Assembly: GCA_015075175.1 (NCBI GenBank)
Contig: JABTUV010000011.1
Coordinates: 62,001-126,000 of the forward strand
Source: a bacterium
GTDB taxonomy: Bacteria; Hinthialibacterota; Hinthialibacteria; H5-UNCL2
DNA length: 64,000 nucleotides
Direction of reading: 5' to 3'
Part shown: in pieces, positions 1 through 13,385 of the stretch
Layout: every line of letters begins with the position of its first letter
How positions within the stretch are numbered: the first letter of the stretch is position 1
The notes under the pieces: generated by a model
Told to the model about the DNA's origin: nothing
The model's database searches: none
Seen by the model: only the letters and a program-made list of their open reading frames with translations
Translations under genes and position numbers: made by a program

Positions 1-658
1 TGGTTTTGGCCTCCACGCCCATCGCCGTGACGACTTCCACTTCGGCGCGGATCAACTCGCGCGGCAGGCGATACTCGGGCACGCCGACGGCGAGCATCCC
101 CGCCAGCACCGGCTCCATCTCGTAGATGGTGACGGCGCAACCCAGGAGCGCCAGGTCGTGGGCGGCGGCCAGCCCCGCCGGTCCGCTGCCGATGATGCCG
201 ACGCTCCTGCCGTCGATCTTCGGCACGTCTGAACGAAGCAGCGCCTGAAGTAGCGGCAGCAGTTCATCGCGGTCCTGACATTGGCGGGGGGCATGGCGCT
301 GGGCGGCTTCTTTAAGGAACTCCACCAGCGTTCGGCCGCCGTCAATTCTGGCTTCGGGGCCGTACTTCTCGCACACGAAGCGCTTGAGGGCGCGGATGGC
401 GAGGGGCTTGTCCAAGTCGCCGCGGCGGCAGGCGGCTTCGCAAGGCGCGCCGCAGATGCGCCCGCAGATGGAGGCCAGCGGATTGGGGCCGCGCGCGATC
501 AGATAGGCCAGCTCATCGTCGCCGGCGGCGATCGCCCGTACGTAGCCGCGCGCGTCCGTCGCGACCGGGCAGGCGGCCTGGCACTTGATCTGCCCGCGCC
601 AGTAGTCGAAGTCGGGCGGTTGGACCGCATAACGACGCGGGGCGGGCGAGGCATTCAT
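1..658 (-). CDS. GltD-like FAD/NAD(P)-dependent oxidoreductase (N-terminal part, runs off window)
   Basis: Reading from the ATG at 656-658 gives 219 residues without a stop up to the window edge. The N-terminal Fe-S helical domain has the ligand pattern of glutamate synthase small subunits: KCQAACPVATDARGY near residue 25, then CGRICGAPCEAACRRG near residues 65-80. A Rossmann FAD fingerprint follows near residue 150 (GIIGSGPAGLAAAHDL), then GMLAVGVPEYRLPRELI, typical of GltD, NfnB and related NAD(P)H oxidoreductase subunits. The ATG overlaps the stop of the Rrf2 regulator (ATGA), so the two are co-translated. The substrate or partner cannot be told because the C-terminal half lies outside; GltD itself, an NfnB-like subunit or an electron-bifurcating partner are all possible. 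Confidence 0.88.
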   Translation of the reverse strand, partial: MNASPAPRRYAVQPPDFDYWRGQIKCQAACPVATDARGYVRAIAAGDDELAYLIARGPNPLASICGRICGAPCEAACRRGDLDKPLAIRALKRFVCEKYGPEARIDGGRTLVEFLKEAAQRHAPRQCQDRDELLPLLQALLRSDVPKIDGRSVGIIGSGPAGLAAAHDLALLGCAVTIYEMEPVLAGMLAVGVPEYRLPRELIRAEVEVVTAMGVEAKT

Positions 659-1116
659 GGATGGCCGCTCCCGGCGCAGACGTTGGCCATGCGGCAGAGG
701 TGCTGGTGCTTGCGCCGTCTGGGCGCGGGGGCGGCGGCCAGGTCCGCCAGCGTCCACTTGGAGAGAATCCGCAACAGCGCCTCGTGCACCTCCAGCATGG
801 CCGCGTGGAAGGCGCACACCTGGCGACGGTCCGAAACCTCGCGGCAGTAGTCGCCGACTACCTGCCCCTGGCAGGCCTCCACGATGGAGAGCAGGTTGAT
901 CTCGCCGGCCCGCCGGGCCAGCGTCACGCCGCCCTGCGCGCCACGATGCGCGCGCAGAATGTTGGCCTTGACCAGGAGGTTGTTGATCTTGGAGAGATAG
1001 CTCGGCGACAGCCCCAGCGCCTCGGCGATCTGGCGCGGCGGGACGGGTTCCGGCCGCTTGGCGAGCACCAGGTAAAGCAGCGTCTGGATGGCCGACTCGG
1101 TGGTCTTGGTGAGCAT
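655..1116 (-). CDS. Rrf2-family transcriptional regulator, putative Fe-S sensor
   Basis: A 153-residue protein of the usual Rrf2 size (IscR, NsrR, RirA group). Residues 1-65 form the winged helix (TESAIQTLLYLVLAK, PPRQIAEALGLSPSYLSKI, then an LRAHRGAQGGVTLA wing). Three cysteines at about 82, 91 and 101 lie in the region where this family binds an Fe-S cluster, though the spacing (8 and 9 residues between them) is wider than in IscR (5 and 5). The gene is first in a two-gene unit with the GltD-like oxidoreductase, so autoregulation and control of that enzyme are likely. A sigma70-like promoter overlapping an inverted repeat lies directly upstream. The signal sensed is unknown. Confidence 0.88.
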   Translation of the reverse strand: MLTKTTESAIQTLLYLVLAKRPEPVPPRQIAEALGLSPSYLSKINNLLVKANILRAHRGAQGGVTLARRAGEINLLSIVEACQGQVVGDYCREVSDRRQVCAFHAAMLEVHEALLRILSKWTLADLAAAPAPRRRKHQHLCRMANVCAGSGHP

Positions 1117-3032: not shown

Positions 3033-3956
3033 ATGGCGAACTGGGCCCACGTGTTCAAGATCTTCGCGCTGCTCGTGGCAGCTCTGCTGGTGTTTCTCGC
3101 CGCGCAGCGCATGTTGCGTCCCGCCGACTACGGTAAGCTCGGCAATTACCGCGCCGGCGCCCTCAACGACCTCTTCGCCCAGGCGCCCCGCCACGAGGGG
3201 CCGGCGTCTGCGCCCAGTGCCATGAAGACATCGTGGGCCTGCACGAAAAAGACGTCCACCGCCGTCAACTGCGAGGACTGCCACGGCCCCGCCCACCTGC
3301 ACGTCAAGTTCTTTCTGGGCGAAGGCGGAGACGAGATCGCCGAGGCTTCCGCCGTTCTGCCCAGGGAGTACACGCTGGAGGGCTGCCTTTTCTGCCATCG
3401 CAAGCTGGCGGCGCGCCCCAGGAACTTTCCCCAGGTCGATCCCGAGGAACACTTCGCCTTTCTCCACGTCAACGACGCAACCACGCCTTGCATCGAGTGC
3501 CACGGCCCGCATGAGCCGCTGTTTCTTCTCACCCGCGTCAGCGAGGCGCGCATCCATCCCATCATCCAGGAGTGCCGGCAGTGCCACGCCACGCCGGTCG
3601 AGGGGGATCATCGCGCCGTGGCCGGCCATCCCGTCATCTTCGAGTGCCGGGACTGCCATCGCAAGGTCGTCGAGGACTTCGCCGGCCGCGAGCACGCCTT
3701 CCTGCGATGCACCGCCTGCCATCTCTTCTACCAGGAGAACGAGTCGGCGGGCCGCATCTTCAAGAACGGCAACCAGCGCTTCTGCCTCCTCTGCCATGAG
3801 AAAAAAGACTGGAAAAACGGCGAGGGCTGGCCGCAGATCGTTCCCGCCAACCATCCCGAGGGCGTGGAAATGGACCGCGACGACCCCACGCTGTGTCTCG
3901 CCTGCCACCTGGAGAACATCCACGGCGAGGAGGCGATGGAAAGAGGCGCGCCGTAG
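3033..3956 (+). CDS. Membrane-anchored multihaem cytochrome c, N-terminal anchor (8-9 haems)
   Basis: From the ATG at 3033 the protein opens with one transmembrane helix (VFKIFALLVAALLVFLAAQ) that would anchor a periplasmic cytochrome. Eight CxxCH motifs are readable in frame: CEDCH, CLFCH, CIECH, CRQCH, CRDCH, CTACH, CLLCH and CLACH. A ninth, VCAQCHEDI, appears in another frame at about 3202-3230, bracketed by two compensating shifts (near 3200 and 3265), so the native protein probably binds nine haems. It is the first gene of a cluster with Rieske, cytochrome b, a second multihaem protein, an Fe-S subunit and NrfD, and so is likely an electron-accepting or -delivering subunit of that complex. 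The family is not resolved further. A GTAG-type REP supplies the TAG stop. Longer in-frame starts exist upstream (2904) but lack a ribosome site and a signal-like sequence. Confidence 0.85.
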   Translation: MANWAHVFKIFALLVAALLVFLAAQRMLRPADYGKLGNYRAGALNDLFAQAPRHEGPASAPSAMKTSWACTKKTSTAVNCEDCHGPAHLHVKFFLGEGGDEIAEASAVLPREYTLEGCLFCHRKLAARPRNFPQVDPEEHFAFLHVNDATTPCIECHGPHEPLFLLTRVSEARIHPIIQECRQCHATPVEGDHRAVAGHPVIFECRDCHRKVVEDFAGREHAFLRCTACHLFYQENESAGRIFKNGNQRFCLLCHEKKDWKNGEGWPQIVPANHPEGVEMDRDDPTLCLACHLENIHGEEAMERGAP

Positions 3957-3974
3957 TTGCGCAGCGCGCTGCGC
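3953..3974 (+). repeat. REP family A (GTAG + TTGCGCAGC palindrome)
   Basis: GTAG followed by the near-palindrome GCGCAGCGCGCTGCGC. The TAG is the stop of the preceding cytochrome gene. Other copies: 13435-13483 (two), 39972-39993, 40697-40718, 44132-44153 and 47063-47084. Confidence 0.85.
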
Positions 3975-4018
3975 CTGCCCACCCAGGGCAGGTGTTTCAT
4001 GGCCGCGATAGTAAGAGC

Positions 4019-4113
4019 GGGACTAGGATTAAGAGCAAGATTAAGAGCAAGAGCAAGAGCAAGATTACGAGTAAGATTAAGATTAAGATTAAGATTAAGA
4101 TTAGAATTAAGAA
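4019..4113 (+). repeat. Purine-rich hexanucleotide microsatellite
   Basis: Degenerate tandem hexamers of the types GATTAA, GAGCAA and GATTAC fill about 95 bp just before the Rieske gene. A related tract is at 30258-30300 and short versions at 7304-7320 and 28462-28482. It is open in several frames but the encoded Lys/Ile/Ser repeats look non-functional. Confidence 0.7.
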
Positions 4114-4140
4114 TCGCATTCGTCATGGAGGGAGGCGGAG

Positions 4141-4602
4141 ATGCACGAGGCCGGTTCCAATGACCCGCGGCCGTCGCGGAGAGGGTTCCTCGATCTCTTC
4201 ATCGCGGGCGGTTTTCTGTCCTGGCTGGGGATGGTCGTCTATCCCATAATCGCCTATCTGACTCCTCCCCGCGATACCGAGGCCAAGGCGACCAGCGCCA
4301 AGGTTCCGAAACCCGTTTCGGAGTTTCCCCCCAACAGCAGCCTCATCTTCGCCTTCGGGGGCGATCCCGCGCTTGTGGTGCGCAGTCCAGCGGGGACTTT
4401 CACCGCCTTTTATGCTACCTGCACGCACCTGGATTGCACCGTGCAATATCGCGCCGATCAGGGCGTGATCTGGTGCGCGTGCCACAACGGCAAGTACGAC
4501 CTGGCGGGCAAGAACGTCTCCGGTCCGCCCCCAAGACCGCTCGCGCCGCTGCAAGTCCACGTGAGAGGAGACGAGATCTATGTCTCAAGAGAAGTCTCCT
4601 GA
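4141..4602 (+). CDS. Rieske [2Fe-2S] protein of a cytochrome bc/b6f-type complex
   Basis: A 153-residue protein with a Tat-type motif (SRRGFLDLF, residues 12-20) and one uncleaved-looking transmembrane helix (about 20-41), the normal topology of Rieske subunits. Box 1 is C94-T-H96-L-D-C99 and box 2 is C112-A-C114-H115. By analogy C94, H96, C112 and H115 bind the cluster and C99-C114 form the disulfide. Box 1 has Asp where most high-potential Rieske proteins have Gly, which may lower the potential (inference). A strong ribosome site (GGAGGCGGAG) precedes the ATG. The end overlaps the cytochrome b start by 23 nt, so the two are translationally coupled. It would take the first electron from quinol and pass it to the flanking cytochromes c. 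Confidence 0.95.
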
Positions 4603-5799
4603 AACGCCGCGGCAGCCGCCAGCCGCATCCCATACTCCCCCCTTAACAAGGGGGGCCGGGGGAGATGACCCGCGGCAGCAAGCAGCCGCACTCCACACGG
4701 AATCGCGGCAGCAAGCAGCCGCAGTCCAGAAAGGTTCGCGGCTGCACGCCTGGTTGGACGAACGCTATCATCTGGACGACCTGGTCGCGTTCGCGCGCAA
4801 GAAGACCGTGCCCCTGCACGGCGCCACCTTCTGGTACTACTGCGGCGGGGCCGCCATGTTCTTCTTTCTGGTGCAGGTGGTCACCGGCATCCTCCTGATG
4901 ATGTATTACATCCCCAGCGCAGACAGCGCGTACGAGAGCGTGCAATTCATCATGTCCAAGGTCCAGTTCGGATGGTTGATCCGCTCCATCCACAGCTGGT
5001 CCGCCAACCTGATGATCCTTTTCGCCTTCATTCATCTCTTCAGCGTCTTTTTCACCGTTTCCTATCGTCCGCCGCGGGAGTTGACGTGGATTTCAGGCAT
5101 GTGCCTCCTGTTCCTGGCGCTGGGATTCGGATTCTCGGGTATCTTCTGCCCTGGAACCAGTTGGCGTTTTGCCACCAAGGTGGGAACCGACATCGTGGGC
5201 AAGACGCCGCTTTTGGGCGAAATGCTCCTGCGCATCGTGCGCGGAGGCGAGCAGGTGACGGGGGCTACCCTGACGCGCTTCTTCGGTCTGCACGTGGCCA
5301 TCCTGCCCGCCGCCTTCACGGCGCTGCTGGGCCTTCATCTCCTGTTTGTACAGCGGCAGGGAATCAGCGAACCGCTGGAGTGGCGGCACACGCCCCCGCA
5401 CCGCCGCCGCAGCATGCCCTTCTTCCCCGACTTTCTCCTGCGCGACCTGCTTCTGTGGCTCATTCTGGTCAACCTCCTGGCGATCCTGGCGGTGTTCTTC
5501 CCCTGGGAGCTGGGAGTCAAGGCCGATCCCTTCCAGCCCGCGCCCGCAGGCATCAAGCCCGAGTGGTATTTCATGTTCATGTTTCAGACGCTGAAGATGA
5601 TGCCGGCGCACGTGCTGACCTTCGAGGGCGAGGCGCTGGCCATCCTGGCCTTCATGCTGGCCGGCCTGGCCGCCCTCTTCCTGCCCTTCTGGGACTGGAA
5701 AGCCCGGGCCGGCCGCCGCAACTGGACCCTGACCGTGCTGGGCATCGCCGCCCTCATCTACATGATCGCCATGACCATCGGAGGGTATCTGGGTCATAA
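4580..5799 (+). CDS. Cytochrome b (b6 plus subunit-IV fused), with compensating indels as sequenced
   Basis: Haem histidines are H138/H152 in helix B ([15 protein letters not shown]) and H238/H253 in helix D. The H-X14-H spacing in helix D is the cytochrome b6 signature, but subunit-IV sequence follows in the same chain and carries the Qo motif PEWYF (near 5560). Between 5137 and 5170 the frame reads [13 protein letters not shown], whereas the next frame reads [10 protein letters not shown]; two small deletions therefore hide the canonical GYLLPWNQ motif. Residues 19-50 are encoded by inserted palindromic repeats and are not typical of the family. As sequenced the frame runs on to 6823, but conservation stops at about 5790 and a TAA one frame over (5797-5799) is the likely native end. 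It is the membrane core of the quinol-oxidising module, coupled to the Rieske gene. Confidence 0.9.
4637..4728 (+). repeat. Palindromic repeats inside the cytochrome b N-terminus
   Basis: A CCCCCC-TTAACAA-GGGGGG hairpin (4637-4655) is followed by two near-identical 25-bp units (4671-4695 and 4704-4728) with core GCGGCAGCAAGCAGCCGC. All are in frame. Related C/G hairpins occur at 7460-7480, 14190-14215 and 44072-44090, and the GCGGCAGCAAGCAGCCGC core recurs at 44103-44120. Confidence 0.75.
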
Positions 5800-5827
5800 G
5801 TCCATCCGTTCCTCCGTTCACGCAAAC

Positions 5828-6005
5828 ATATTCATCTCTGCGCTCTCTGCGGCTCCGCGCGGAAGGCTCGCGCAGAGTCGCGGAGGACGCAGAGTCAGCA
5901 TTATCAACCATGTTCATCTCTGCGCTCTCCGTGGGGCAGGGTGCAGAGGCGCGGAGGACGCAGAGTCAGCATTATCAACCATATTCGACTGCGCTCTCTG
6001 CAGGC
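5828..6005. repeat. Tandem CTCTGCGCTCTC / GCGGAGGACGCAGAG repeats
   Basis: Units start at 5831, 5912 and 5984 and end in CAGCATTATCAACCAT. They separate the cytochrome b domain from the next cytochrome gene. The same family fills 18964-19175. Confidence 0.75.
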
Positions 6006-6012
6006 TCCGCGC

Positions 6013-7276
6013 GATCATTTCACCGTCCTCCTGTTCGCCCTCTTTCTGCGGCGCGGCGCGCGCCTCGGGGCAGAGCGACCTGGCTGACAACCAGTGCTTC
6101 TGTCTGCCATCAGACCCTCAGCCAGGAGCTCACGACAAGCCGCTCTTTACTACCGCCGGAGCCAATCTTCCATCGACATTCATCTCGCCAAGGGCATCCC
6201 AGTGCCAGCATTGCCACGGCGGGGACGCCACCCAGGCGGACGCCGAGGCGGGTATGGGCCCCGCCAAGGGCTACATCGGTTTCGCCCACGCCGGCGGCGG
6301 TCCCCGACTTCTGCGGCCGCTGCCACAGCGCGACGCCGCCTACATGGCCATAATCCAGCGCCTGCCGGTCGACCAGGTGCAGAAATATTCCACCAGCCAT
6401 CACGCGAGCGGCTGGCGGCGGCGACGAGAAGGTCGCTACCTGCGTGAGTTGCCACGGCGCCCACGGCATGTACGAGGTGCAAACGTCAACTCGCCCGTCT
6501 ATCACTTCAACATCGTCAACACCTGCGCCAGGTGCCATGCGGATCCCTCTGCGGCCGGCTATGACATCCCGACCGACCAGTACAAGAAGTACGTGGGCAG
6601 CGTGCGTGGCGTGGCGCTCCTGGAGAAGCACGATCGCGGCTCGCCCGCCTGCAACGACTGCCACGGCAACCACGGCGCGACGCCGCCGGGCGTCGAGTCT
6701 GTCGCCCATATCTGCAGCGTCTGCCATGCCCTGATCGCCGAGCATTTCGCCGCCAGTCCGCACAAACCGGTGTTCGACCAGAACAACTGCCTGAGGCACC
6801 CAGTGCCACGGCGCGCGACGTGAGTCCGCCTGGCGATTTCATGCTCGGCGGCCAGCCGCCTCCGTCTGCATCACCTGTCACAAGCAGACCAAGAGGACCA
6901 GGGGTTTCGGGTCGCGGTCGCCATGAAGGCGGCCCTGGACGAGCTCGCCGCCGCCCAGGCCGCCGCCGCGGCCAAGTACCAGGACGCCCACAACAAGGGC
7001 ATGGAAGTGAACGAAATCGAAATGATCCTGCGCGACGTCAACCAGCAGCGTATCAAGGCGCGCGCGCTGGTGCATACCATCGACATGGGGCGCGTGACGG
7101 CGGAGGCCGAGGCGGGCAGGCGCCAGGCCGAGCGCGCCCTCGCACTCGCGGACGCCGCCCTCGCCGAGTACGTCTTCCGCCGCCAGGGCCTGGGCGTCTC
7201 CACGCTGATCATTACACTGTTGGCGATTCTCCTGTACGTGAAGATTCGCCTCATCAGCGCGCGCCGGGAGGAGTAA
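6013..7276 (+). CDS. Multihaem cytochrome c with C-terminal membrane anchor (about 9 haems), several frameshifts as sequenced
   Basis: Reading across frames gives a signal-peptide-like start ([10 protein letters not shown], near 6016-6050), then haem motifs CFVCH, CQHCH, CGRCH, CVSCH, CARCH, CNDCH, CSVCH, a damaged TQCH (near 6795) and CITCH (near 6867). Conserved spacers such as [25 protein letters not shown] and HICSVCH are typical of periplasmic multihaem cytochromes. After the haem domain comes an Ala/Glu-rich helical segment (about 6923-7190) and one C-terminal transmembrane helix ([14 protein letters not shown]). Breaks lie near 6075-6110, 6290-6350, 6390-6470, 6790 and 6860. The exact start is not clear. 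With the N-terminally anchored cytochrome at 3033 it brackets the Rieske/cytochrome b pair, and probably forms the periplasmic wire of the complex. Confidence 0.8.
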
Positions 7277-7341
7277 TTCGCGGCACGGCCGTCCTGCCTG
7301 TGCGATTACGATTACGCTTGCTTCGCAATCGAGGAGACAAA

Positions 7342-8139
7342 ATGTCTGACAACGATTTGACTCACAGCCGGCGCAGATTCCTTCGCCTCACGCTCTGCAG
7401 CGCCGCGGGCGCGTCGGTCGGATAGCTTTATGCCTTCGGGCAGGTCGTATCCCCCCCATCCCCCCTTGGCAAGGGGGGAGCGGAGGCCTTGCCTTCGCCC
7501 GAGGAGCTGGTGAAGCTGGAATGGGGCTACATCGTGGATACCACGCGCTGCATCGGCTGCGGCTCGTGCGTGCGCGCCTGCAAGCTGGAGAACGACGTGC
7601 CCGACCGCTACTTTCGCACCTGGGTCGAGCGCTACGAGATCGGCCGCGACGAAACCGTCCACGTGGACAGTCCCAACGGCGCCCTGGAAAGCTTCAAGTC
7701 CGACCGCCTCGCCGACGCCTCCGCCGTCAAGGCCTTCTTCGTGCCCAAGCTCTGCAACCACTGCCGCAATTCCGCCTGCACCCAGGTCTGCCCCGTGGGC
7801 GCCTCCTTCCACTCGCCCGACGGGGTGGTGCTGATCGACAAGCAGCGCTGCATGGGCTGCGGCTACTGCGTGCAGGCCTGCCCCTACGCCTGCCGCTACA
7901 TCGACCACGCCAAGGGCACGGCGGACAAGTGCACCCTCTGCTACCATCGCATCCATCGCGGACTTCCCCCCGCCTGCGTGCAGGCCTGCCCCCGCCAAGC
8001 CCGCCTCTATGGAAACCTCGCCGATCCCGACAGCCCCATCCGCCGCGTGTTGCACGAACGCCGCTACTACCTGCTCAAGCCCGACATGGGGACCAACCCC
8101 AAGTGCTACTATCTCGGCCTCGACCTGGAGGTGAAGTGA
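7342..8139 (+). CDS. Tat-exported NrfC/PsrB-type ferredoxin with four [4Fe-4S] sites, broken after the signal
   Basis: The ATG at 7342 (ribosome site GAGGAG) starts a Tat signal with SRRRFLRLTLCSAAGA, which ends at a TAG (7423-7425). After a C/G palindrome (about 7448-7485) the mature domain resumes in another frame, with an alternative TTG at 7489. The 216 residues carry 16 cluster cysteines in four groups: CIGCGSCVRAC, CNHCRNSACTQVC, CMGCGYCVQAC and CTLC with CVQAC. This is the architecture of NrfC, PsrB, QrcC and the Fe-S part of ActB. No molybdopterin subunit is nearby. The stop overlaps the NrfD start (TGATG), so the two subunits are coupled. It should relay electrons between the cytochromes c and the NrfD quinone site at the periplasmic face. 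Confidence 0.9.
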
Positions 8140-9293
8140 TGGACGGATTCGTCTTCCCCAATGAACAGCACGTCACCTGGACGGTCATGATCGTGCTCTA
8201 TCCCTACATCACGGGCCTCGTGGCGGGCGCCTTCATCGTCTCCTCGCTCTATCACGTGTTCGGCTTTAAGAACCTGCGTCCCATCGCGCGCTTCTCGCTG
8301 GTCTCCTCGTTCGCGTTTCTCCTCTTCGCCGCCGTCCCCCTCCTCAACCACCTGGGACGGCCCGAGCGCGCCGCCAACATCATGATCACGCCCAACTTCC
8401 ACTCCGCCATGAGCGGCTTCGGATTCGTGTATACCACTTACATCGTGATCGTCTTCCTGGAAATCTGGTTCATGTATCGGCCCGACTTCACGCTGCACTG
8501 GGAAAAGTCGCGCGGCCTGGTGCGCGCCATGTTCTACCTCCTGCTCCTTGGCGACACGCGCCACACCCCCGAGGCCCTCGCCGTCGACCGCAAGATGGTC
8601 AAAATCCTCGCCGGCATCGGCATCCCCGTCGCCTGCGTCCTGCACGGCTACGTCGGCTTCCTCTTCGGCTCCATCAAGGCCAACCCATGGTGGTCCACGC
8701 CCTTGATGTTCATCATCTTCATCTTCTCCGCCATCGTGTCCGGCATCGCCGTATTGATCTTTCTCTACCAGTTCGTCAAGTGGCTCAAGAAGATTCCCTA
8801 CAGCCAGGAGACGCTGGAGACCATGGCCCGCTTCCTGTGGGGCTTCATGATCATCGCCGTGGTGCTGGAGTTGATGGAGGTGCTGTCGCTGGCCTACGAA
8901 CAGACCGAGGAGTGGGCGGTGCTGAAAAGCCTGCTTCTGGGCAAGCTCTACTGGACCTACGTGGTGCTGCAACTGCTCGTGTGCTCGGTCGTGCCGTTCT
9001 TTCTCCTCTCCTTCGCGTGCCTCGTGCGGCTGCCGACGAAACTGTTCAACGGGCTGGTGTTCGCCTCCTCGGTACTCCTGCTGTGCCAGGTTCTCCTGAT
9101 GCGCTGGAACGTGGTGGTCGGCGGACAGCTTTTGTCCAAGAGCTACCGGGGATTCACCAGCTACCTGCCCGGCATCTTCGAGAAAGAAGGGCTGTTGGTG
9201 GCGGCGCTGATCTTCATCGTGCCGTTTCTCCTCCTGCGCCAGTTCGACAAGGTGTTTCCGTTCTTCGAGCAGCCGGGACGGGAGAGGGCATAA
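8139..9293 (+). CDS. NrfD/PsrC-family quinone-interacting membrane subunit
   Basis: A 384-residue polytopic protein with about nine to ten hydrophobic helices (for example WTVMIVLYPYITGLVAGAFI, MFIIFIFSAIVSGIAVLIFL, LVAALIFIVPFLLL). Family marks include HLGRPERA after helix 3 and NPWWSTPLMFIIF. NrfD proteins have no haem and bind quinone next to a partner four-cubane ferredoxin, as in NrfCD, PsrBC, QrcCD and alternative complex III. Here the partner is the adjacent ferredoxin, whose stop overlaps the ATG. It would give the cluster a second quinone site besides cytochrome b. The protein is intact, unlike its upstream neighbours. Confidence 0.93.
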   Translation: MDGFVFPNEQHVTWTVMIVLYPYITGLVAGAFIVSSLYHVFGFKNLRPIARFSLVSSFAFLLFAAVPLLNHLGRPERAANIMITPNFHSAMSGFGFVYTTYIVIVFLEIWFMYRPDFTLHWEKSRGLVRAMFYLLLLGDTRHTPEALAVDRKMVKILAGIGIPVACVLHGYVGFLFGSIKANPWWSTPLMFIIFIFSAIVSGIAVLIFLYQFVKWLKKIPYSQETLETMARFLWGFMIIAVVLELMEVLSLAYEQTEEWAVLKSLLLGKLYWTYVVLQLLVCSVVPFFLLSFACLVRLPTKLFNGLVFASSVLLLCQVLLMRWNVVVGGQLLSKSYRGFTSYLPGIFEKEGLLVAALIFIVPFLLLRQFDKVFPFFEQPGRERA

Positions 9294-9299
9294 GACGCG

Positions 9300-9700
9300 C
9301 GGTCTCACAAGCTGCTCGCGTCCATGCCGTCCTCTCGATACGCGGCCCGAAGTAACAGCTCGCACCTCAAGCGGGCGATTCGTCGGGCCGCTACTCGAGG
9401 ACTCGGTTTTTCTTTTACGTGGGATCATCCACGGGCGTCTGTCTTCAGAGCAAAAGGCGGAAATGCAAGCCGTGTCCTCGAGTAGGCCCCGCCGACGCAC
9501 TCCCATAAGAGGCAACAAGTAACTTCGGGGCCGTATCGAGAGGCACGGCGACTCGCATGTGCCGGCGCCGCGTCCATGCCGTCCTCTCGATATCCCTCGA
9601 TACGCTCTGGGGGCTTACTCGGGACAAGGCGCGGCCCGAAGCGACGGCTCGCACCGCGGCGAAGCACTCGTCGGGCCGCTCCCTGTGGACTCGGTTCCTT
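9300..9700. repeat. REP-like array, family F (CTCGAGGACACGGC / CCTCTCGATACGGCCC)
   Basis: No gene. Contains inverted copies of CTCGAGGACACGGC (near 9393 and 9465) and repeated CCTCTCGATA blocks (9331, 9527 in reverse, 9582). The same family occurs at 24240-24655, 31836-31856 and 48755-48945. Confidence 0.7.
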
Positions 9701-9771
9701 CTTTCCCACTCTTGGGAGCGCCCGTTTTCAGCCCGGACGCGGAACGGCGACGTTCCCGCGTGCCGCCGCCT

Positions 9772-11535
9772 TCACCGGTCGAAGACGATGCGCAAGCGAT
9801 GCGGGTTGAACACGTCCGGGTGAGTCCAATCGTCGCCCACCGGCGAGAGCGGCAGCCAGGCGGTCCTTTCGCCGTCGTCCAGTTGAAAGCGCCCCCCTCC
9901 ATCGTGGAGCGGCCTGCCGTCGGCGTCCGTGACGAGCCGCCAGGCGCGCGAAACGTCCGCGTCCGCGCTGGACAAAGCCAGGCACAAGGGGCCGTCAAAC
10001 AGCGCCACCTTGCCCGGAGGCAGGTTGGGCGCCGGCACGATCCGCAATCCGCCGTCGAACACGAGCTGCAGCACGTCACCCGACTTCCAGCGCCGCGACA
10101 CGACCAGCCGGCCCGACTCGCGCCTGGGCTTGATCTTCTTTCCATTCAGCAGAACCGTCACGCTTTCCGCCCAGGCCGGCGCGCGCAGGCGCACGGCGAA
10201 CGTCCGCGCGCGGCTGCATTCCACGGCGACACCGGCGCAGCTGAGCCGCGGATAGTCGCTCGTGATCTCCAGGCGCACGCCCCGCTCGGGAAAAGCGACC
10301 GTCGCCTCCGGATAGAGATTGACTTCGTAACCCTCCGGCCCATGCGTGATGATGTACCGTCCCAGCTGCCCCAGCGCCCAGGCCCCCCACAACGAACAGC
10401 ACCCGGGATTCTCGCTGCCGAAGCGCCCGTCCCAGCCCTGCCAAACCTTCCCGCCCACCACCTCCGCGTCGTAACCGCGATGCCCGAACCCGCCGGTGCA
10501 AAACTGGTTCATGGCGAAGTGGTTGACCAGCACGTGCTCGGCGTCGTCGAGAAATTCATCCTCGCCGGTCGCGTGGAACATCATCAGATTGACGATCACG
10601 TAATCGGCCAGCGCGCAACCCTCGTCCTGCTCGGAACGGGGCATGCCCTCGGAAATGGCGCCGTCAACCAACCGCACCGCCTTGCACCAGGCGAGATAGT
10701 CGCGCGCGGGGTCAAGACACGTGGGATCGCCGGTCGCCTGATGAAGGTCGATGAGGCCGCGAATAAGCGAGAGGCTGTGGTGGGCGTGGCTGGTGCGACC
10801 CGCACGGCGGGCGAGACGTTGGGCCAGCGCCAGGGCGCGGCGGTCTCCGGCCTGGGAGTAGAGCGCGACCAGCCCGTCCAGGCAATGCCCGTAGAATTCA
10901 TGCAGACAGCCGGTAGCGGAAGCGGGACGCTCCGCCGGCTCTCCGGGAACGCCCAGGCCCGCCACGTGGCGCTGCGCGCGACCGGCCGTCTCCCACGTGG
11001 GCGCCGTTTTCTCGAAGTACTCCGCCAGGCGCCGCGCCGCCAGAAGGCAGCGCCTATCGCCCGTGTCCGCGTAGGCGTCCATCATGCCGCGCAGGGCGAA
11101 GCCGGCCCCCGAGGGGATGCGCGCATCCTTCTGCTCCAGCGGCCTCTCGGGACCAAAGCATCCTTGAGCACTCTGGAAGAGCAGCGATTGATCGAGCGCG
11201 AGTGCCCGCAGAGCGGGGACGCCCGGCCGCCCGCACGCCTCCGCGACCGAGAGAACCGACAGCCAGCGACCCACCTGGTCTCCCGGCCAGTCCCACCACA
11301 GTGCGCCCGGTGTTCCGCTCGCGCTGGCACGGAAACTCTCGGCGTTGTAGCGGTCGCCGCGCCCGAGCACGTTTTCAAAGGCGGCGTTGCGGCGCGCCGA
11401 CAGTTCGCCTTCCAGCTTCACGTCCGGCAGCGCCGGCGTCTCACGCCGGCCGTACGCAATCGGCGACACCATGGCGCCCACGTGTAGAACGCCCGCCAGC
11501 GTGGCGGACGGGAAAATCGACGCGCGCGACCCCAT
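9772..11535 (-). CDS. GH127/DUF1680-like glycoside hydrolase (beta-L-arabinofuranosidase-type)
   Basis: A 587-residue protein with an alpha-helical (alpha/alpha)6 toroid in its first two thirds and a beta-sandwich tail. Family features include LWWDWPGDQVGRWL near the start, repeated helical hairpins (GMMDAYADTGDRRCLLAARRL), DEGCALADYVIVNLMMFHATGE and the cysteine pair SENPGCCSLWG, at the position where GH127/GH146 enzymes place zinc-binding and nucleophilic cysteines. Later segments (EVNLYPEATVAF, FAVRLRAPAWAESVTVLLNG) match the C-terminal domain. GH127 and GH146 members remove L-arabinofuranose from plant glycans; substrate here is not proven. No clear signal peptide is seen at the chosen ATG. 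It is co-oriented with the serine hydrolase upstream. A paralogue lies at 41265-43516. Confidence 0.82.
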   Translation of the reverse strand: MGSRASIFPSATLAGVLHVGAMVSPIAYGRRETPALPDVKLEGELSARRNAAFENVLGRGDRYNAESFRASASGTPGALWWDWPGDQVGRWLSVLSVAEACGRPGVPALRALALDQSLLFQSAQGCFGPERPLEQKDARIPSGAGFALRGMMDAYADTGDRRCLLAARRLAEYFEKTAPTWETAGRAQRHVAGLGVPGEPAERPASATGCLHEFYGHCLDGLVALYSQAGDRRALALAQRLARRAGRTSHAHHSLSLIRGLIDLHQATGDPTCLDPARDYLAWCKAVRLVDGAISEGMPRSEQDEGCALADYVIVNLMMFHATGEDEFLDDAEHVLVNHFAMNQFCTGGFGHRGYDAEVVGGKVWQGWDGRFGSENPGCCSLWGAWALGQLGRYIITHGPEGYEVNLYPEATVAFPERGVRLEITSDYPRLSCAGVAVECSRARTFAVRLRAPAWAESVTVLLNGKKIKPRRESGRLVVSRRWKSGDVLQLVFDGGLRIVPAPNLPPGKVALFDGPLCLALSSADADVSRAWRLVTDADGRPLHDGGGRFQLDDGERTAWLPLSPVGDDWTHPDVFNPHRLRIVFDR

Positions 11536-11563
11536 GCCCTGCCTTCCCTCCAGAGTACAACCT

Positions 11564-11614
11564 GGAGTTCAAACTTCAGTTTGCCTGTAAGCCAAGCTGA
11601 AGCTGGTACTCCGG
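11564..11614. repeat. REP family G (GGAGTTCAAACTTCAG palindrome)
   Basis: Imperfect hairpin running from GGAGTTCAAACTTCAG to AGCTGAAGCTGGTACTCC between the GH127-like and beta-lactamase-fold genes. Two further copies are embedded in the reading frame starting at 17850. Confidence 0.75.
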
Positions 11615-11618
11615 GGAC

Positions 11619-13385
11619 CTAATGCCCCGCCGGGCCTTCGCGCGTTCCGCCCGCAAGCGGAGCCGGCGAAGCGTCCACGCGCTGGAAGCGCAGGTTTTGC
11701 ACCCGCCCCGCGTGCAGCTTGAAGCCCTCCACGCCGCCCTGCGCATCGCGCAGGAATGCGTACTGGGTCCCGCCCAGGCGGAACACGTCCGACGGCTCCG
11801 GCCGCTCCGTCGGCGCCGGTTGCAGGGGACCCCGTCGATATTCCCCCTGGCGCACGAACAACTGGTCGTCCTCCACCTCGAATCGATAGACGACCTCCAG
11901 TTCGTCGTTGTAGTACTCGCCCGCGAATTGCAGCAGGTCGTCGGGCGTATGCTCGACGGTATACTGGGGCACGAGCAGCCACTCGCGCCGCCCGTCGTAG
12001 AGCGCCTGCACGTGGTAGCCGCCCTCCGGCTGCGGCTTCCACTCGAAGCGATAGTAGCGGTCGGTCGGCGTATTCACCCCCACAAACAACGTGTCGCTGA
12101 CCGCCGCCAGGTCGAAGCGCGCCGACCGCGTCGACACCGACAAGGTCGCGCCCCGGATATAGAAGCGATAGATGCTGCCCGTCTCAGTGTTGCGGTAGCT
12201 GCCGACCTTGTCCTCCAACGCACTCCGCGGCAACTCCACGAATTTCAGGTCGGGCGGCGGCTTCTGCCCGCTCTCCTCCTCCCGGAAACGGTCCGACAGG
12301 CAGATGTCCGCGATCCGGTACACGAAATTGCCCGGATTGACCTCGGAATAATTGGCCAGCACGATCACGGAGAAGTTCGCCTCCGGGAATTGCACCCACT
12401 CGGAGCGGAACGCCCCGAACGCCCCCGAATGGCCGATCGTGCGCAGCCCGTTGTAACGCGACAGGTACAGCCCCAGCCCGTAGTTGCACTCGCGCCCGTC
12501 GTTCAGCTTGCCGGGAACCTGCATCTCGGCGATGAGACTCGCGTCCCCCACAATCGGATGGTAGAAGTTCCGGTCCCAGAGCAGCAGGTCTCGCACCGTG
12601 GACATCATGCCCCCGCAGCCCATCACCAGGTTGGAAGGCTCAAAGCTGAGGCCGAACTCCGTCTCCTGATCGTTCTTGGTGTAATAACCCCAAGCGCGAT
12701 ACGGCACGACCTCGGTGTAATCGTCGTGAAAGTGCGTCTGCTTCATGCCCAGGGGTTTGAAGATGCGCCGGTCCGCGAACTCGCGCAGCGTCAGTCCCGA
12801 AACCCGCTCCACGACCAGCGACAAGAGCAGGTAGCCCGAGTTGGTGTACGAGTGCTCTTCGCCTACGGGGAAGTTGAGGTCCTTCTGGCGAGCCAGGAGC
12901 GGCAGCACGCCCTCCTCAGTGCGATAGAGCTGCGTGTTCTTGCCCGCCATGTAGACCAGCGCCAGGTAGTCGCGCAAGCCCGCCGTGTGGTGGCAGAGAT
13001 GGCGGAGCGTGATGGGCCGTCCGTAGTCCGGCATCTCGGGGATGTACTTGCGCACGTCGTCGTCCAACGAGAGCCGGCCCTCCCGGGCCAAAAGCAGGAT
13101 GCAAAACGCCGTGAACTGCTTGGACATCGAGTAGATGTGGAAGGGCGTGGTCACGTCGTTGGGCAGGCCGCTCTCCAGGCTGGCCATGCCGAAGCCTCTT
13201 TCATAAACAAGAGTACCGTCTTGAATGATACCGACCGCGCAGCCGGGGATGTCGGGATAGTTGAGGGGGGCGAAGAGGCGGTCGATGCGGCGGATTTGAT
13301 CGCGGGTCAATCCTGCGTGGGCGGAGATAATCGAAAGGCCGCCCAGAAGGGCCAGGGAGACAAGCGAGCGCACGGTCAGTCGCAT
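11619..13385 (-). CDS. Secreted class C beta-lactamase-fold serine hydrolase (PBP4*/esterase type)
   Basis: A 588-residue protein with a Sec signal (residues 1-24, ending AHAG). The catalytic motifs of the family are in order: S86-M-S-K89 (SxxK), Y180-T-N182 (YxN) and H319-S-G321 at the KTG position. The catalytic domain ends near 370; the last 200 residues form two beta-rich modules (VGSYRNTETGSIYRF..., FAGEYYNDELEVVYRF...) like the lipocalin-type domains often fused to these hydrolases. Such proteins act as D-aminopeptidases, peptidoglycan hydrolases or esterases, and rarely as true beta-lactamases. It is periplasmic or secreted. The neighbours are polysaccharide enzymes, but a link is not shown. 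Confidence 0.9.
   Translation of the reverse strand: MRLTVRSLVSLALLGGLSIISAHAGLTRDQIRRIDRLFAPLNYPDIPGCAVGIIQDGTLVYERGFGMASLESGLPNDVTTPFHIYSMSKQFTAFCILLLAREGRLSLDDDVRKYIPEMPDYGRPITLRHLCHHTAGLRDYLALVYMAGKNTQLYRTEEGVLPLLARQKDLNFPVGEEHSYTNSGYLLLSLVVERVSGLTLREFADRRIFKPLGMKQTHFHDDYTEVVPYRAWGYYTKNDQETEFGLSFEPSNLVMGCGGMMSTVRDLLLWDRNFYHPIVGDASLIAEMQVPGKLNDGRECNYGLGLYLSRYNGLRTIGHSGAFGAFRSEWVQFPEANFSVIVLANYSEVNPGNFVYRIADICLSDRFREEESGQKPPPDLKFVELPRSALEDKVGSYRNTETGSIYRFYIRGATLSVSTRSARFDLAAVSDTLFVGVNTPTDRYYRFEWKPQPEGGYHVQALYDGRREWLLVPQYTVEHTPDDLLQFAGEYYNDELEVVYRFEVEDDQLFVRQGEYRRGPLQPAPTERPEPSDVFRLGGTQYAFLRDAQGGVEGFKLHAGRVQNLRFQRVDASPAPLAGGTREGPAGH

Follow-up and report, generated by a model that had tools for sequence, protein, structure and literature searches.

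A six-gene locus pairing a Rieske/cytochrome b module with an NrfD module and two multihaem cytochromes

The stretch of DNA analysed here (the window) is 64,000 nucleotides (nt) of contig JABTUV010000011.1, contig C3 of assembly GCA_015075175.1, and coordinates without a contig name refer to it. Six genes, all on the plus strand, lie between 3033 and 9293 in the order CytA-[Rieske-cytochrome b-Cyt2]-FeS-NrfD, where CytA and Cyt2 are multihaem c-type cytochromes and FeS is an iron-sulphur protein. To judge from the sequences, this locus is made up of two recurrent three-gene modules, one of multihaem cytochrome, FeS and NrfD, and the other of Rieske protein, cytochrome b6 fused to subunit IV (b6/IV) and a C-terminally anchored multihaem cytochrome. 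Given the gene order, the Rieske module is nested within the NrfD module, so that the two are interleaved beyond mere adjacency. The pairing of these modules is real, since distant bacteria carry these six genes as an operon too.

Gene content of the locus

The genes, and one repeat between them, are as follows.

3033..3956, plus strand: CytA, 9-haem c-type cytochrome anchored in the membrane at its N terminus; belongs to the NrfD module as its multihaem subunit
4012..4112, no strand: A/G-rich low-complexity tandem repeat between CytA and Rieske (TRF period 6/12/18)
4141..4602, plus strand: Rieske [2Fe-2S] protein with an N-terminal helix (PF00355, E=7.1e-12; 46% identity to the Rieske protein of Ignavibacteria locus L114)
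4580..5808 (end approximate), plus strand: b6-type cytochrome b fused to subunit IV (PF00033, E=1.7e-42, and PF00032, E=5.1e-8, in a single frame)
about 5992..7276 (start approximate), plus strand: Cyt2, 9-haem c-type cytochrome with a helical linker and a C-terminal membrane anchor
about 7342..8139, plus strand: FeS, NrfC-like ferredoxin of the twin-arginine translocation (Tat) type with four [4Fe-4S] motifs (PF13247, Fer4_11, E=1.1e-25, with further Fer4 matches)
8139..9293, plus strand: NrfD-like quinone-reactive membrane subunit (PF03916, E=2.6e-37; frame intact)

Pfam matches and frameshift-aware alignment bear out the six genes as they were described in the initial annotation: CytA, Rieske, b6/IV cytochrome b, Cyt2, Tat ferredoxin and NrfD. 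The haem counts given there, 8–9 for CytA and about 9 for Cyt2, come to 9 in each, for a total of up to 18. CytA has an N-terminal helix and nine CXXCH motifs (positions 3209-3894), with two mutually compensating frameshifts at 3201 and 3260. It is 58% identical to a 9-haem cytochrome of a relative in the same class (G011) and 47% identical to a 15-haem homologue in L114. Cyt2 occupies the place of cytochrome f/c1 in the Rieske/b module. Seven of its haem motifs are exact CXXCH and two more align to CXXCH in the reference proteins while being interrupted by frameshifts. Aligned end to end it is 41% identical to the C-anchored 11-haem cytochrome of L114 and 35% identical to its match in L081, with 7–13 frameshift events depending on the reference.

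The Rieske protein retains both ligand pairs and the disulfide cysteines (CTHLDC...CACH), in agreement with the C-X-H...C-X-X-H ligand pattern of the superfamily. Ser and Tyr residues have roles in setting Rieske potential, and the Ser raises it in high-potential Rieske proteins (PMC12954380). Since the window protein has Gly (CACHNG) in place of the Ser of the high-potential motif CPCHGS, as do the Ignavibacteria orthologues, the substitution points to a low-potential chain of the menaquinol type. Cytochrome b carries H138 and H152 (H-X13-H), H238 and H253 (H-X14-H) and a PEWY motif; the four b-haem histidines and PEWY are conserved across 12 sequences. Identity to the L114 cytochrome b is 58% over 4724-5792, with two frameshifts near 5135 and 5167-5170. 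The cytochrome b frame reads without a stop through a short repeat (..GCGGAGGACGCAGAGTCAGCATTATCAACCAT..), copies of which lie at 5809-5990 between cytochrome b and Cyt2.

FeS and NrfD are each 73% identical to their counterparts in G011 and 65% identical to those in L114. FeS has a twin-arginine start, with one in-frame TAG at 7423 between the signal and the mature part; NrfD has no frameshift. Two pairs of genes overlap, as had been noted initially: Rieske and cytochrome b by 23 nt, and FeS and NrfD at TGATG. The cluster at 3033-9293 contains a single NrfD and, also as first described, no molybdopterin-type or similar molybdenum subunit. Promoter and terminator scans returned nothing above chance.

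Linkage and independence of the two modules

Conserved synteny of all six proteins, which had been set as the test of the initial annotation, was found in six genomes of the Ignavibacteria class (loci L114 and L138-L142), where the homologues are contiguous and on one strand. These operons have gene overlaps, and their order is CytA-FeS-NrfD-Rieske-cytochrome b-Cyt2, permuted relative to the window. L114, from Ignavibacteria bacterium CRAIB_MAG89 (G016), has a 15-haem CytA and an 11-haem C-anchored Cyt2; L138-L142 share its order, with an 8-haem relative of CytA, and the L138 operon, at 6964-12676, is intact. The arrangement is beyond chance, because a single contiguous operon in another phylum matches the six window proteins over their full length. 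The modules also occur together in Planctomycetota (L099) and Myxococcota (L088, L090, L091, L098 and L100), on separate branches of cytochrome b.

Co-location was counted in 78 genomes selected by NrfD alone, which contain 63 cytochrome b loci. Cytochrome b lies within 10 kb of NrfD in 7 of the 20 loci of the close subfamily and in 0 of the 43 others (Fisher 1.4e-4), where the subfamily line (E<1e-90) was drawn after the table was seen, two of the seven co-located sequences had seeded the profile and four of the seven loci are near relatives. The safest count is therefore 7 of 63 cytochrome b loci. Taken as 4 lineages among 17, the co-location has a binomial tail of 2e-5 if chance is assumed at 1% for each locus. 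In the cytochrome b tree the window groups with Ignavibacteria (a seven-row set, support 97/99) apart from its class relatives, and well-supported branches force at least four changes of the co-located state. It is likely that the locus was acquired horizontally.

Each module is also found by itself, and neither can therefore need the other. A scan of the named genomes with an NrfD alignment gave 161 loci, of which the best 80 were kept; these fall in Myxococcota, Ignavibacteriota, Planctomycetota, Thermodesulfobacteriota, Acidobacteriota, Lentisphaerota and other phyla. Nearly all of these 80 have the order multihaem cytochrome-FeS-NrfD, the cytochrome mostly with 4, 9, 13 or 15 CXXCH motifs, and most have no Rieske/b genes. 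Within the organism's own phylum-level group this kind of NrfD is present in 3 of 14 genomes: the window genome, G011 (cytochrome-FeS-NrfD, again without Rieske/b) and G004 (FeS-NrfD). A many-helix membrane protein adjoins the trio or the FeS-NrfD pair in distant bacteria (L007:5965-7746, L140:11735-13378 and L008:6428-8185), and is DUF2339 in the two cases tested.

The set of Rieske, cytochrome b and multihaem cytochrome occurs without NrfD in class relatives, where the partner has 8 haems, in many Ignavibacteria and in one Planctomycetota genome; the Rieske/b subfamily is present in 133 of 294 genomes of the Ignavibacteria class. In three class relatives (G011, G012 and G013) a cytochrome b is fused to a C-terminal CXXCH domain (L028:7769-9310, L029:7287-8654 and L030:5151-6518).

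Related systems and genomic setting

Quinol dehydrogenases of the NrfCD kind without a molybdenum subunit are known as NrfBCD, Geobacter CbcSTU/Cbc4, Melioribacter roseus NrfCD and cluster 2 of MBNT15 SHF-111 (PMC11434368, PMC3534657, PMC9386147, PMC8076601). The window locus fits the NrfBCD/CbcSTU type in its clustered multihaem cytochrome, Tat NrfC-like four-cubane protein and NrfD, with no molybdenum subunit, and differs from it by the interleaved Rieske/cytochrome b module and by the nine haems of CytA. Neither a pentahaem NrfA, as in NrfABCD, nor a further cytochrome gene is present in the window cluster, the search for NrfA having been confined to it. Alternative complex III likewise has a multihaem cytochrome, cubanes and an NrfD-like membrane subunit; its molybdenum enzyme-like subunit and second NrfD-like subunit are absent from the window cluster, which does not belong to that type.

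With cytochrome b6f/bc complexes the locus shares the Rieske ligands, the b6-type H-X14-H spacing and a subunit IV with PEWY. It differs in that b6 and subunit IV are fused and that there is no cytochrome f/c1 gene in the locus, a C-anchored 9-haem cytochrome standing there instead. The marks of cytochrome b6f proper, which are separate b6 and subunit IV, cytochrome f and the haem c_n cysteine, are not found. A haem c_n in the window cytochrome b was considered and rejected, as the Cys of WYYCGG is displaced by one residue from its place in b6, and the Ignavibacteria orthologues have Phe or Met instead.

The Geobacter cluster extHIJKLMNOPQS, tied to selenite and tellurite reduction, also combines Rieske and cytochrome b (ExtO/ExtP, GSU2933/2932) with multihaem cytochromes and a porin, but no NrfD or FeS genes are reported for it (PMC5877670). 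The window cytochrome b scores 194.5 bits against the ExtP family (NCBIfam NF040969), below the cut-off of 290, and is not a member. In Methanoperedens, an archaeon, MPEBLZ_00816-00823 cluster Rieske/cytochrome b with two pentahaem cytochromes, and no NrfD is reported there (PMC4683180). Anammox clusters had initially been named as the nearest arrangement. Kuste4569-4574 and Kustd1480-1485 do share a b6-type cytochrome b, a subunit IV-like protein and a multihaem cytochrome in place of cytochrome f, but carry an NAD(P) oxidoreductase and no NrfD (PMC12954380). The window cluster has no NAD(P) oxidoreductase, and the nearest arrangement found is that of the Ignavibacteria. The GltD-like protein encoded nearby belongs to a separate minus-strand Rieske/b operon upstream.

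That operon, at window 1-1116 and upstream of it (C3:52,900-62,800, L011), is a second respiratory operon that reaches just outside the window. It encodes an Rrf2-like regulator, the GltD-like NAD(P) oxidoreductase, a Rieske protein, a cytochrome b, a 6-haem cytochrome c, a NarG-like Tat molybdoenzyme and a NarH-like protein, and is conserved in class relatives G001, G002 and G004. Its NarG-like enzyme was considered as a molybdenum subunit for the six-gene locus and rejected: it lies on the opposite strand in a Rieske/cytochrome b/6-haem operon of its own, which is kept without the six genes in the same three relatives. Between the two respiratory operons, at 1305-2639, is a Gfo/Idh/MocA-like Tat oxidoreductase that is apparently split by a frameshift.

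Downstream of Rieske, cytochrome b and Cyt2 in Ignavibacteria without the NrfD trio (L145-L149) come genes for a 4-haem cytochrome and an outer-membrane barrel, and usually one for a 14-haem cytochrome. Upstream of the module, these loci encode cytochromes of 13 and 19 haems that carry b-type domains, together with a 6-haem protein similar to NapC/NirT. In L114, genes similar to these neighbours flank the whole six-gene set. The window genome encodes homologues of the neighbours of L138 on contigs C45 and C20 (21-haem, 49%; 11-haem with b561, 39%; NapC/NirT type, 40%), a gene pair for a putative barrel and a 12-haem cytochrome on C45 and, as a clear assignment, a decahaem protein with an MtrC/MtrF domain on C14 (PF22113, E=3.3e-45). 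On account of these genes, the genome is predicted to encode components of an extracellular electron transfer chain, which lie on separate contigs.

Proposed function and alternatives

The reading preferred here, at a probability of roughly 0.55, is that the locus encodes two co-inherited and probably co-expressed menaquinol:multihaem-cytochrome oxidoreductases, which would serve as the inner-membrane portion of a chain for extracellular electron transfer. The Rieske, b6/IV and Cyt2 proteins would make a bc-type Q-cycle complex with the C-anchored 9-haem cytochrome in place of cytochrome f/c1; quinol would be oxidised at the PEWY site, one electron passing by way of Rieske to Cyt2 and the second across the b haems. 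CytA, FeS and NrfD would make a quinol dehydrogenase of the NrfBCD/CbcSTU type without a molybdenum subunit, in which electrons would move from quinol to NrfD, to the four cubanes and on to the 9-haem CytA. Both modules would deliver electrons to shared periplasmic multihaem cytochromes and from there to an outer-membrane porin-cytochrome. Cofactors, direction of flow, shared acceptor and extracellular end point are what we infer from the gene content, module boundaries, recurrent linkage and other genes observed. For NrfCD modules without a molybdenum subunit, a role in supplying electrons to periplasmic multihaem cytochromes and to Fe(III) reduction has already been proposed (PMC3534657, PMC9386147), and CbcSTU has likewise been proposed to feed such chains (PMC11434368). 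By analogy with Geobacter, two oxidases of differing energetics may each be used with acceptors of a different potential. Electron delivery to acceptors outside the cell, which the initial annotation named as one possibility, is probable.

Several points weigh against this reading or parts of it. The six genes adjoin no porin-cytochrome here, the remaining parts being on other contigs, and the barrel call on C45 is weak, with no direct match to the Ignavibacteria barrel. The organism probably respires oxygen as well, because an alternative complex III-like cluster followed by cytochrome oxidase (Cox) genes is present (C2:17,600-29,700, L010), and the acceptor of the locus could therefore be periplasmic. 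With its frames broken, the locus may also be partly inactive in this genome, though the likelihood of this is small.

A single physical complex is unlikely. In it, the two anchored cytochromes would hold both membrane modules in one supercomplex, and an 18-haem wire would electronically connect the two quinone sites. The contiguous Ignavibacteria operons with their gene overlaps, the nesting of the window Rieske module between CytA and FeS, and the membrane anchors on both cytochromes are consistent with this, and the permuted gene order and the many single occurrences of the modules, in relatives within the window's class and in Ignavibacteria alike, count against it. Slightly more doubtful is its fullest form, an electrogenic supercomplex for extracellular respiration, with a Q-cycle Rieske/b6 core in which a 9–11-haem cytochrome replaces cytochrome f, wired to an NrfD quinol dehydrogenase, a single haem wire thereby serving both quinone sites. 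Of the supercomplex in the initial annotation, the six-gene linkage and the up to 18 haems are supported; a single, obligate complex is not supported, since each half also occurs alone. The unlinked operons that were to speak against it are half of the picture, the modules being separate in many genomes and joined in Ignavibacteria, Planctomycetota and Myxococcota.

A chain operating in the opposite direction, or in both, is improbable; in it electrons would enter from outside, the NrfD module would reduce menaquinone and the Rieske module would run as an oxidase or uphill. Qrc and Nhc are NrfD-type complexes with multihaem subunits that do reduce quinones (PMC8076601), and in principle a multihaem conduit can work either way; the nearest analogues that papers name are, however, quinol oxidases, and no markers of iron oxidation or electron uptake turned up, though no search was aimed at them. 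Equally improbable is that the modules serve a periplasmic reductase, of nitrite, tetrathionate or similar, rather than an extracellular acceptor. In L103, L104, L109 and L111 a related trio of 4-haem cytochrome, FeS and NrfD has an octahaem cytochrome beside it, and in class relatives G007-G009 an 8-haem member of that cytochrome family is the partner of Rieske/cytochrome b. Yet no such octahaem protein is present in the window cluster, and the subfamily closest to the window, that of the Ignavibacteria, is accompanied by barrel and 14-haem genes. The four trios with octahaem cytochromes are themselves a likely direct line from quinol to reductase.

The frameshifts, at least 11, and the in-frame TAG are confined to CytA, cytochrome b, Cyt2 and FeS; Rieske and NrfD have none, nor do five genes checked over 8.9 kb of the operon upstream. 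The same 7 kb was assembled twice in this genome, as C20:1-7066 (L132) and C45:61,800-70,000 (L131). These copies differ by 25 clustered indel events, nearly all deletions in C45, against 9 mismatches, and reading frames that are interrupted in C45 run through intact in C20. Clustered deletion-type consensus errors therefore occur in this assembly, and the two copies measure their local extent directly. Because the twin stretches differ almost only by indels, the frameshifts of the six-gene locus are read as probable assembly errors of the same kind, and decay as their cause is judged unlikely. That the locus is a decaying remnant or an accidental adjacency is very improbable despite the concentration of frameshifts and the stop in four of its genes, as the locus preserves its haem motifs and the ligands of the Rieske cluster and of the b haems, no second stop appears in the aligned frames, the C45 and C20 comparison points to another source of broken frames and the adjacency of the modules recurs across several phyla.

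Each module alone has precedents, and their joining in one operon is the new aspect; no paper describing both as one operon was found in the literature searched, which covered few subscription journals. The best-known quinol oxidases for extracellular electron transfer in model metal reducers (CymA, ImcH and CbcL) are not known to be of the bc type. These three have been surveyed together (PMC6295460). A Q-cycle Rieske/b complex on a multihaem wire, paired with an NrfD module, would be an energy-conserving coupling site in extracellular respiration. As the operon is conserved in the Ignavibacteria class, the question of this coupling site is testable.

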